Shown: positions 7,440 to 54,329 of the stretch, piece after piece
How positions within the stretch are numbered: the stretch's first letter is position 1
Layout of the letters: the number at the start of each line of letters is the position of its first letter
Source of the DNA: Bacteroidota bacterium
GTDB lineage: Bacteria > Bacteroidota > Bacteroidia > Chitinophagales > Chitinophagaceae
Length of the DNA stretch: 64,000 nt
Assembly (NCBI GenBank): GCA_030706735.1
Contig: JAUZNZ010000027.1
Span: 1-64,000, forward strand
Reading direction: 5' to 3'
The notes under the pieces: model-generated
Told to the model about the DNA's origin: nothing
Database searches by the model: none
Seen by the model: only the letters and a program-made list of their open reading frames with translations
Program-made: the position numbers and the translations under genes

Positions 7440-7535
7440 TAAAAATACTACTGTCCTTTGCGCAGTCCCATGACAGCAATCAGACCGGCGTTTGACCTAG
7501 ATCAATATGTGGGGGATAAGGGAGGTCTATCTTTA
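7440..7535. promoter_or_regulatory. Symmetric bidirectional promoter with two phased dyads
   Basis: TGACAGCAATCA 7471, TGACCTAGATCA 7493 (within FNR-box-like TTGACCTAGATCAA); TATTTTTA (minus, 7440-7447) and TATCTTTA (plus, 7528-7535), each 33 bp from its proximal dyad. Confidence 0.85.
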
Positions 7536-11026: not shown

Positions 11027-11620
11027 TCAGCGCGTGCGGTCCTTCCTGTTCCTTTTTGTCTTCAGCACCCAGAAAAGCCCCTTTACATTCTCCTTCCATT
11101 CGGGTAAGAGGAGTACAAGCGCAGTCTCTTCGGTCAAATCGAGAATGGTGACGGAAGCGGCGAGGTAAAAAAGGAAGTACAACGGATGAGGGAGAAAGAA
11201 AAGAAGGAGAAGGAAAACGCCCTGGAGAACCGCCGCTATTTTGGCCAACCAGGTATGGAATGCGCTCATTTTACGATATCGGATCAGGGCGAGGGAGACT
11301 TGCAGGATGAAAAAAAAGGTCATGACGAGGATCAGCGGGAGCTGATCCCTGATAAAATCCAGCTTGAACACGAAAATGCCGATAATGCCCGCCAGGACGG
11401 TCAGGTCATCGCCGACCGAATCCAGGACCGCGCCGCGCTTGCTGACCACTTTATAGCGGCGGGCAAGGTAACCGTCCACCGCGTCCGTAAAGAAACTCAG
11501 TGCCAGGAACCATTTAAAGAGATCGAGGTTATGGCTGAATGCCAGGTAGATGACCAGGGGGGCCGCCAGGATCCGCCAGATCGTGATGCCATTGACGAAG
11601 TAAGAAATCCGGGAGTGCAT
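11027..11620 (-). CDS. CDP-alcohol phosphatidyltransferase
   Basis: SFFTDAVDGYLARRYKVVSKRGAVLDSVGDDLTVLAG (DGxxARR..G..LDSxxD). Start placed at MHSRISYF because the longer ORF start overlaps the predicted promoter. Confidence 0.85.
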   Translation of the reverse strand: MHSRISYFVNGITIWRILAAPLVIYLAFSHNLDLFKWFLALSFFTDAVDGYLARRYKVVSKRGAVLDSVGDDLTVLAGIIGIFVFKLDFIRDQLPLILVMTFFFILQVSLALIRYRKMSAFHTWLAKIAAVLQGVFLLLLFFLPHPLYFLFYLAASVTILDLTEETALVLLLPEWKENVKGLFWVLKTKRNRKDRTR

Positions 11621-11701
11621 TGGATATTCAACGTTAAAAAAACAAGGGGCAAAATAGACATAATGCCCCGTTATAATCCAATATCCTATGAAAAACCTAA
11701 A

Positions 11702-11841
11702 CAAATATACGGCGGGTTCGCGATGGCCCAATTGACTATGAGCAGTTTATCCCCTGATTGTGGTCTATGGCGGGCATGACCAGCTTCATACCGGCGATTG
11801 ATCGACATCCGGTCACGGCGTCCCGCTGCATCCTATATTTG
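11702..11841. promoter_or_regulatory. Symmetric bidirectional promoter with four phased dyads
   Basis: TGACTATGAGCA 11733, TGATTGTGGTCT 11755, TGACCAGCTTCA 11777, TGATCGACATCC 11799 (all 22 bp apart); TATATTTG on both strands (11702-11709 minus, 11834-11841 plus), each at 33 bp. Confidence 0.85.
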
Positions 11842-11847
11842 ATCATT

Positions 11848-12147
11848 ATGCAAACCTTCGAATCTCATATTCAGGGCGATAAGCCCGTGGTGGTCGACTT
11901 CTTTGCGGAGTGGTGCGGCCCCTGCAAACTGATGACGCCTGTATTGAGGGAAGTAAAGGATAAGGTCGGGGACAGGGTGACCATCCTGAAACTCGACATT
12001 GACAAGAACCCTCAATATGCGCAGCAATATGGCATACAGGCCGTGCCCACCCTGGCGATCATCAGGAATGGCCATATCGTATGGCGCAAGAGCGGTCTTA
12101 CGCCCGCCCATGAGATCCTGGAGCATTTGAACCTCCTCATTCCCTGA
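11848..12147 (+). CDS. thioredoxin
   Basis: VVDFFAEWCGPCKLMTPVL, QAVPTLAIIRNG; start at MQTFESHI. Confidence 0.95.
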   Translation: MQTFESHIQGDKPVVVDFFAEWCGPCKLMTPVLREVKDKVGDRVTILKLDIDKNPQYAQQYGIQAVPTLAIIRNGHIVWRKSGLTPAHEILEHLNLLIP

Positions 12148-49197: not shown

Positions 49198-49294
49198 GCA
49201 AAGTAGCCGGCATCGGGCGGACGACCCATGACCTCAATCAGGGAAAACCCTGATCTCCGTCAGTTGGGGGAATTGCAGTAATTATGTAGTATTG
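49198..49294. promoter_or_regulatory. Divergent promoter ccoI / REC-CRP regulator with two phased dyads
   Basis: TGACCTCAATCA 49229, TGATCTCCGTCA 49251; TAGTATTG 49287-49294 (plus, 34 bp); weak TACTTTGC (49198-49205, minus). Confidence 0.65.
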
Positions 49295-49326: not shown

Positions 49327-50403
49327 ATGCGTAAACTGCTAGTAATCGACGATCACGATGACATTCGTGAGAATATTGCCGAGATCCTGAGCCTGTCCGG
49401 CTATGAGGTTTTTACGGCCCCCAATGGGAAAAAAGGGGTGGAGACAGCGCTGAAGGAAAAGCCGGAGCTCGTCATTTGCGATATCATGATGCCCGAGCTG
49501 GACGGATATGGCGTATTGCACCTGCTGCGAAAGAATGAATCGACAAGGGATACCCCGTTCATTTTTTTGACGGCGAAGACCGAGCGTTCCGATTTCCGGA
49601 AAGGCATGGAGATGGGAGCGGACGACTATATCACCAAACCTTTCGACGATATCGAGTTGCTCAACGCCATCGAGATCCGGCTCAAGAAGTACGATATCCT
49701 GCATGGCAAATATTCGGGAGATGAGAAGGGAGCCAGCGAGCTTATTTCAGATCTGAGCACGTCCGGCGTATTACGGCTCGACGTGCAGACGGCGGAAACC
49801 CAGGAACTGTCCAAGAAGATGAATCTCTACCAGGAGGGCAAGCGGCCCAAGGCGCTGTATTATGTAAAGAGCGGGAAGATCAAGGCCTTCCGGATGAACG
49901 AGGACGGAAAGGAATACATTACCAACCTTTATGTTGCCGGAGATTATATCGGTTATCTGCCGCTGATGGAAAACAAATCCTATGAGGACTCGGCCGTCGT
50001 GCTCGAGGATGCCGAAGTAGCTCTCTTTCCCCGCGAAGAATTCCTGGACGCGCTGTATCACGATCTGGCCATCGCCACAAAATTCATCAAACTCATTGCC
50101 AGGAACGTGCAGGAGAAGGAAGAACGGTTGTTGCAGCTTGCTTACGGATCGTTGCGCAAGCGGGTCGCCAAGGGGTTATTGGACATCCATGCTAAATTTG
50201 CCACTGCGCAGGCCGATCAAAAAAACAGTTCGACGCGTGTTGCCCTTGCCATCTCCCGGGAGGATATCGCCCAGTATATCGGCACGGCCACCGAATCGCT
50301 GATCCGCACGCTTTCAGACTTCAAATCCGAACACCTCGTGGACATCCTTGATGGGAAGATCCATATTACCGATGTGAAGAAACTGGAGAATTTATTGTAT
50401 TGA
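49327..50403 (+). CDS. response regulator receiver fused to CRP/FNR-type sensor fold and HTH
   Basis: REC: VIDDHDD, ELVICDIMMPELDGYG (D52), FLTAK, ITKPF; CRP fold GKIKAFRMNEDGKEYITNLYVAGDYIG; HTH ALAISREDIAQYIGTATESLIRTLSDF. Confidence 0.95.
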   Translation: MRKLLVIDDHDDIRENIAEILSLSGYEVFTAPNGKKGVETALKEKPELVICDIMMPELDGYGVLHLLRKNESTRDTPFIFLTAKTERSDFRKGMEMGADDYITKPFDDIELLNAIEIRLKKYDILHGKYSGDEKGASELISDLSTSGVLRLDVQTAETQELSKKMNLYQEGKRPKALYYVKSGKIKAFRMNEDGKEYITNLYVAGDYIGYLPLMENKSYEDSAVVLEDAEVALFPREEFLDALYHDLAIATKFIKLIARNVQEKEERLLQLAYGSLRKRVAKGLLDIHAKFATAQADQKNSSTRVALAISREDIAQYIGTATESLIRTLSDFKSEHLVDILDGKIHITDVKKLENLLY

Positions 50404-54264: not shown

Positions 54265-54329
54265 CAAATGTAATGTGCTGCCGGTAGGCCGCACCTGATC
54301 CAAATCAGGGGCGAAACTGATCTAACTCA
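54265..54329 (-). promoter_or_regulatory. Phased dyads + -7 box for hemN
   Basis: TGATCCAAATCA 54296, TGATCTAACTCA 54318; TACATTTG (54265-54272 minus) at 33 bp. Confidence 0.9.

Follow-up and report, generated by a model that had tools for sequence, protein, structure and literature searches.

A four-dyad array between divergent thioredoxin and phosphatidyltransferase genes: a predicted four-site form of a two-site FNR/CRP-type promoter design in the Chitinophagales

Activators of the FNR/CRP family are usually described as binding at one site, or at two sites with varied spacing, and class II members are positioned at -41.5 with respect to the transcription start. The motif of DNR is CTTGATnnnnATCAAG (PMC1274295), and hemN belongs to the Anr core regulon of Pseudomonas (PMC6588701). 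An FNR-family regulator is likewise found in the Bacteroidota, namely HcpR2 of Bacteroides and relatives, for which the motif is GTAACnnnnGTTAC and the predicted regulon in most Bacteroides consists of hcp only (PMC1274295). Promoters of this phylum carry a sigma-A -7 element, TAnnTTTG, which spans -12 to -5 (PMC9723704).

Described here is an array of four dyads located at 11702-11841 of a 64,000-nucleotide stretch of DNA from a member of the Chitinophagaceae (hereafter, the window). Judging from the sequence, the array would be a rare version, with four sites, of the two-site FNR/CRP-type class II promoter that is used throughout the clade. The kind of promoter is known; provisionally, what is new is its strict 22 + 23 bp rule together with a candidate regulator in which a receiver domain is joined to a CRP-type protein.

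Architecture of the array

The coordinates of the array, the genes it separates, and the other features discussed below are provided in Table 1. As can be seen, the four TGA-N6-TCA-like dyads follow one another at distances of 22, 22, and 22 bp by direct reading, exactly the register that the original prediction had given. The two TATATTTG boxes are also present as predicted, one on each strand. Their centres, at 11837.5 and 11705.5, are separated by 132 bp, and each lies 33.0 bp from the centre of the nearest dyad (11804.5 and 11738.5, respectively).

Table 1 Features of the array, its flanking genes, and related loci in the window
Feature	Position	Strand	Description
Dyad 1	11733..11744	no strand	TGACTATGAGCA; predicted class II position (-41.5) for the phosphatidyltransferase promoter on the minus strand; score 8.0 by the dyad matrix (best 0.2%); 23 bp from TATATTTG
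Dyad 2	11755..11766	no strand	TGATTGTGGTCT; predicted -63.5 site of the minus-strand promoter; score 7.9
Dyad 3	11777..11788	no strand	TGACCAGCTTCA; predicted -63.5 site of the plus-strand thioredoxin promoter; score 9.2
Dyad 4	11799..11810	no strand	TGATCGACATCC; predicted class II position (-41.5) for the thioredoxin promoter; score 9.75; 23 bp from TATATTTG
TATATTTG, predicted sigma-A -7 element of the thioredoxin promoter	11834..11841	+	TAnnTTTG match at -12 to -5 (PMC9723704); predicted start ~11846
TATATTTG, predicted sigma-A -7 element of the phosphatidyltransferase promoter	11702..11709	-	TAnnTTTG consensus (PMC9723704); predicted start ~11697
Thioredoxin gene (WCGPC)	11848..12147	+	Pfam PF00085, E 2e-27; ATG ~2 nt past the predicted start site
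CDP-alcohol phosphatidyltransferase gene	11027..11620	-	Pfam PF01066, E 1e-17
Candidate regulator (receiver-CRP)	49327..50403	+	Receiver, cNMP-binding-type domain, and Crp-type helix-turn-helix; Pfam PF00072, PF00027, PF13545
Two-dyad pair	49229..49262	no strand	In the intergenic region common to the candidate regulator and the divergent cation-ATPase gene
Reference two-dyad pair	7471..7504	no strand	TAnnTTTA boxes 23 bp off on both sides
Reference two-dyad pair of hemN	54296..54329	no strand	TACATTTG at 23 bp

Rather than forming additional operator boxes, the TATATTTG sequences match the Bacteroidota sigma-A -7 element on both strands, one for each divergent promoter. Given that TATATTTG spans -12 to -5, the transcription starts are predicted at 11846 on the plus strand and 11697 on the minus strand. 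With these predicted starts, which derive from the -7 boxes, the outer dyads are centred at -41.5, the class II position, and the inner dyads at -63.5 on both strands. No E. coli-type sigma-70 promoters were found in the region.

All four dyads display the TGA...TCA core with the 12-bp TGA-N6-TCA spacing of FNR/CRP-family sites, and the binder is likely a protein of that family. Only TGACCAGCTTCA has both TGA and TCA intact; the other three have one mismatch each. While these three imperfect dyads had been foreseen, their degeneracy had been assigned to the outer half-sites, which is correct for 11799 alone. The mismatch is in the right-hand half in every case, and at 11733 and 11755 that half faces the centre of the array. 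The proposal that TGACCAGCTTCA is a strong internal site from which filling is seeded likewise finds no support, inasmuch as its score of 9.2 falls below both that of the dyad at 11799 (9.75) and the mean for tandem pairs (~10.8). A scan of the window revealed no TGAC-N4-8-GTCA or TGACC-N4-8-GGTCA dyads, which rules out a perfect TGACC palindrome as the array site.

The dyad matrix employed for scoring was derived from 17 tandem pairs in other parts of the genome, located with a search pattern without fixed spacing, the array locus being excluded. Since it comes from perfect pairs, it gives perfect sites an advantage in absolute score; this bias does not affect the register test because a single-dyad matrix carries no spacing. 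Each dyad of the array ranks in the best 0.07-0.2% of window positions. The four-in-register sum of 34.8 is first among 63,923 window positions, with the next at 19.9, and the best such sum in 200 first-order Markov-resampled windows was 16.3. For registers of 13 to 40 bp, no other has four sites that all exceed 2.2, as compared to 7.9 for the 22-bp register of the array. TGA and TCA are short words and the individual dyads are imperfect, as would be expected of a chance pattern, but the rank in register, the resampled windows, and the excess of 22-bp pairs in the window (see below) refute a chance origin and reduce its probability to a negligible level. The array appears, rather, to be a real and well-formed regulatory element.

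The thioredoxin ATG lies 6 nt past the -7 box, and its mRNA is predicted to be nearly leaderless (11834-11850). The predicted phosphatidyltransferase start is 77 bases ahead of the ATG at 11620. Within this leader (11646-11697, minus strand) lies a 48-bp element composed of a GGTTTTTCATAGGATATTGGATT...GGGGC hairpin followed by a T-run. Four further intergenic copies of the element, 80-86% identical, are present in the genome (L002, L003, L004, and L005). Because the element resembles an intrinsic terminator, the leader could be an attenuator. One arm of the hairpin is able to base-pair with the start codon (fold z = -2.07). A search of 11500-12000 against Rfam gave no match.

The two-dyad code and its four-site form

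There are 18 dyad pairs at a lag of 22 bp in the window and at most three at any other lag from 13 to 45 bp. For most of the 22-bp pairs a TAnnTTT[GA] sequence is positioned exactly 23 bp away, and the strong pairs are nearly all intergenic with such a box at that distance on one or both sides. Genome-wide, 17 of 27 tandem pairs have a spacer of 10 bp when spacers of 3-33 bp are allowed. Single perfect dyads ahead of perfect boxes are found at 23 bp in 7 of 19 cases and at 24 bp in five. The arrangement dyad-N10-dyad-N23-TAnnTTTG can thus be read as a genome-wide code, and it occurs twice in the array, on opposite strands. At 7471, 31898, and 51782, single pairs are flanked on both sides by TAnnTTT[GA] boxes exactly 23 bp off, and each of these pairs seems to act for both promoters of a divergent set.

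The same spacing prevails among 100 genomes of the same order, the Chitinophagales. These contain 214 pairs at 22 bp, compared with 165 for 23 other spacings together (~7 per spacing), and reversed-pattern controls gave 0 both with and without a required box. When a perfect box is present, it is located at 23 bp in 49 of 62 pairs, with five each at 22 and 24 bp. The central claim of the original prediction, namely that one regulator has a phased array of dyads linked to each of the divergent genes by the same box at the same distance, is borne out, and its 22-bp phasing recurs throughout the genome and in relatives.

According to the mechanism that we favour, the region 11702-11841 would be a pair of divergent promoters, each with its own sigma-A -7 box. 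An FNR/CRP-family dimer at -41.5 would activate each promoter by class II contact with RNA polymerase, and a second dimer would lie alongside it at a distance of two helical turns (-63.5). In other parts of the genome one two-dyad pair would serve one promoter, or two divergent promoters together. Here, two pairs would stand head to head, one further 22-bp step apart, to yield the four-dyad array for thioredoxin and the CDP-alcohol phosphatidyltransferase. The sites, their register, the distance to the boxes, their recurrence in the genome and in relatives, and the identities of the target genes come directly from the sequence. We regard the explanation as a whole as highly probable, that is, two FNR/CRP-activated promoters set head to head in phase, an oxygen- or redox-type signal, and the receiver-CRP protein as the likeliest binder.

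The array promoters are presumed to be activated rather than repressed. Repression is known for some members of the FNR/CRP family, and the dyads might be repressor operators that hold both genes off, with occupancy at -41.5 and -63.5 blocking the polymerase. Repressors tolerate varied positions, however, whereas the exact -41.5 placement recurs over tens of promoters in the 100 genomes, as a class II activator demands. Repression at this locus is therefore considered improbable.

More finely balanced is the issue of the central step. The locus might consist of two independent back-to-back promoters with a coincidental 22-bp distance from 11755 to 11777 and no four-dimer assembly. Indeed, a three-in-register search of the genome returned only the array at 11733-11810, and the other clear arrays in the genome are all pairs. 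Several relatives have a standard pair close upstream of the phosphatidyltransferase orthologue (for example, L041, L043, L049, L051, and L053). In one relative thioredoxin has its own pair, beside the receiver-CRP gene (L123), and in another it lies downstream of hemN (L121). At the remaining orthologous loci examined, the two genes do not lie side by side in divergent orientation. The four-dyad form was not found at the orthologous phosphatidyltransferase or thioredoxin loci examined, which instead have one standard pair, none, or a gene placed behind another gene. For this reason the array looks like a local fusion, in phase, of two ordinary regulon promoters. Imperfect triples, of which there are 64 in relatives, are by estimate, without a computed test, not clearly commoner than expected for pairs with a chance neighbour, again in keeping with independent promoters. 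Against this, a random junction would seldom give an exact third step in register, though this is a single trial, and three perfect TGA-N6-TCA triples, in G047, G057, and G078, exceed by rough estimate the chance extension of pairs. We assign two independent promoters a probability just short of even. One relative (G057:C6:754-831, locus L151) has another run of four dyads in 22-bp register, containing one mismatch.

With respect to how the dimers would occupy the array, cooperative filling is plausible because four weak, below-average sites lie in side-by-side phase. A first look at a few promoters had suggested a rule whereby the distal dyad is strong and the proximal one weak. Over 20 promoters the means are 10.88 and 10.79 (Wilcoxon p = 1.0), and the rule was rejected.

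Target genes and the likely binder

The genes beside the pairs in the window encode HSP20, a baeRF-type protein, a fatty-acid desaturase, universal stress proteins, PfkB, PAS histidine kinases, a COX1-FixO (cbb3) oxidase, a cation ATPase, the receiver-CRP protein, and HemN, among others; PPDK also belongs to the pair targets. Outside the window, pairs precede genes for a nirK-like multicopper oxidase, ScdA/hemerythrin, nitroreductases, a universal stress protein, an AMP-binding enzyme, PRPP synthase, and a sulfate permease-type transporter. Such a set suggests a microaerobic or dormancy-like, energy-stress regulon. On the basis of these other targets, the signal is most likely oxygen limitation, redox stress, or nitrogen-oxide stress, and the two-site switch probably turns on low-oxygen survival genes. 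Thioredoxin would fit as a redox member of the regulon and the phosphatidyltransferase as a membrane-lipid member.

The candidate regulator encoded in the window combines a receiver domain with the two domains of a CRP-type protein. Genomes with this receiver-CRP fusion contain 0.64 pairs per Mb and those without it 0.19 (p = 9e-5), the background for each other spacing being 0.017 per Mb in both groups alike. With phylogeny taken into account solely by splits at the genus and family level, the association has p values of 0.013 (genus), 0.005 (family), and 0.065 (outside the family). A pair lies just upstream of the receiver-CRP gene at 16 of 79 named loci; each of the other lags accounts for two at most, and the within-gene control gave 0. 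We put the chances that this protein is the main binder at slightly above one half. In the intergenic region that the regulator shares with its divergent neighbour, the box at 23 bp is directed toward that neighbour and not toward the regulator. As the class II spacing points to the ATPase gene, autoregulation of the receiver-CRP protein is only weakly supported.

The binder might instead be a Cys-rich FNR homologue or an NO-sensing DNR-type protein, with the fusion serving only as a target. The genome encodes two FNR-like proteins with N-terminal cysteine clusters, L112 (G000:C20) and L114 (G000:C53), one of which is on the contig of a nirK-type gene that bears a strong pair. Moreover, pairs persist in genomes that have FNR but lack the fusion (n = 4, 0.38 per Mb). 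Given the fusion, however, FNR adds nothing (p = 0.30), whereas the effect of the fusion holds among genomes without a close FNR (p = 6e-4), and G038, G024, and G046 have many pairs and the fusion but no close FNR. An FNR- or DNR-type binder in place of the fusion is thus a serious contender, albeit at somewhat less than even odds. The C53 copy is ~1.5 kb from the end of the nirK-type multicopper oxidase gene. The pair excess in genomes lacking receiver-CRP, 0.19 per Mb against the background of 0.017, implies that the code must have at least one further user among the proteins. That protein is probably an FNR homologue such as L112 or L114, and the Cys-rich homologues possibly share sites with receiver-CRP.

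CRP itself does not fit as the binder. The half-sites read TGAY with no conserved G before TGA, as opposed to the TGTGA expected. Nor is the equivalent of Arg 180, a contact residue in the recognition helix of CRP, found in the corresponding helices of receiver-CRP (TATESLIR) or of the FNR homologues (TTYETVFR).

Comparison with known systems

Searches of the open-access literature yielded no description of a rigid 22 bp + 23 bp two-dimer design and nothing relevant on tandem FNR sites in Bacteroidetes. The code offers a simple rule by which the low-oxygen and stress regulon could be predicted in a large group of bacteria from soil and water, and it points to an uncharacterised receiver-CRP regulator. 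The four-dyad array itself is a natural test piece for cooperative dimer binding.

With regard to function, the target kinds overlap with those of the dormancy regulon of Mycobacterium DosR, to which PfkB also belongs. The overlap includes the HspX-type small heat-shock protein, universal stress proteins, and nitroreductase reported as DosR targets (PMC11203133). The pair-bearing genes at 4868-54250 and at L208-L220 (HSP20, universal stress proteins, PfkB, nitroreductases, and a P-type ATPase) are DosR/Anr-like in kind. DosR, a NarL-type response regulator, has another kind of DNA site, and no homology of the control systems is claimed. It is conceivable, though we think it rather unlikely, that a receiver-CRP protein driven by histidine kinases runs a DosR-like low-oxygen survival regulon in the Chitinophagales by means of an obligatory side-by-side dimer code in 22-bp steps, and that at the four-dyad array the dimers fill end to end and couple the two divergent genes. 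Two-component control of universal stress proteins under oxygen depletion is also a feature of the Myxococcus NmpRSTU oxygen-utilization regulon (PMC11841059). The NmpRSTU regulator is NtrC-type, and its DNA-binding family is unrelated to FNR/CRP.

There is also a close likeness to the FNR/Anr/DNR-type class II promoters (TTGAT-N4-ATCAA at -41.5), which have the same core half-sites, TGAY-N4-RTCA, and the same -41.5 position. Common to both are target kinds such as the cbb3 oxidase, hemN, universal stress proteins, and nirK. The sites described here differ from the FNR box in that the outermost T/A is not always present, and the candidate regulator differs from FNR in having a receiver domain, no Fe-S cysteine cluster having been noted in it. 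Finally, two dyads 22 bp apart are here the rule, combined with the Bacteroidota -7 box. In contrast to the single or variably spaced sites usually described for the family, tens of promoters in 100 Chitinophagales genomes display a rigid 22-bp step between two dyads, with the -7 box a further 23 bp away.
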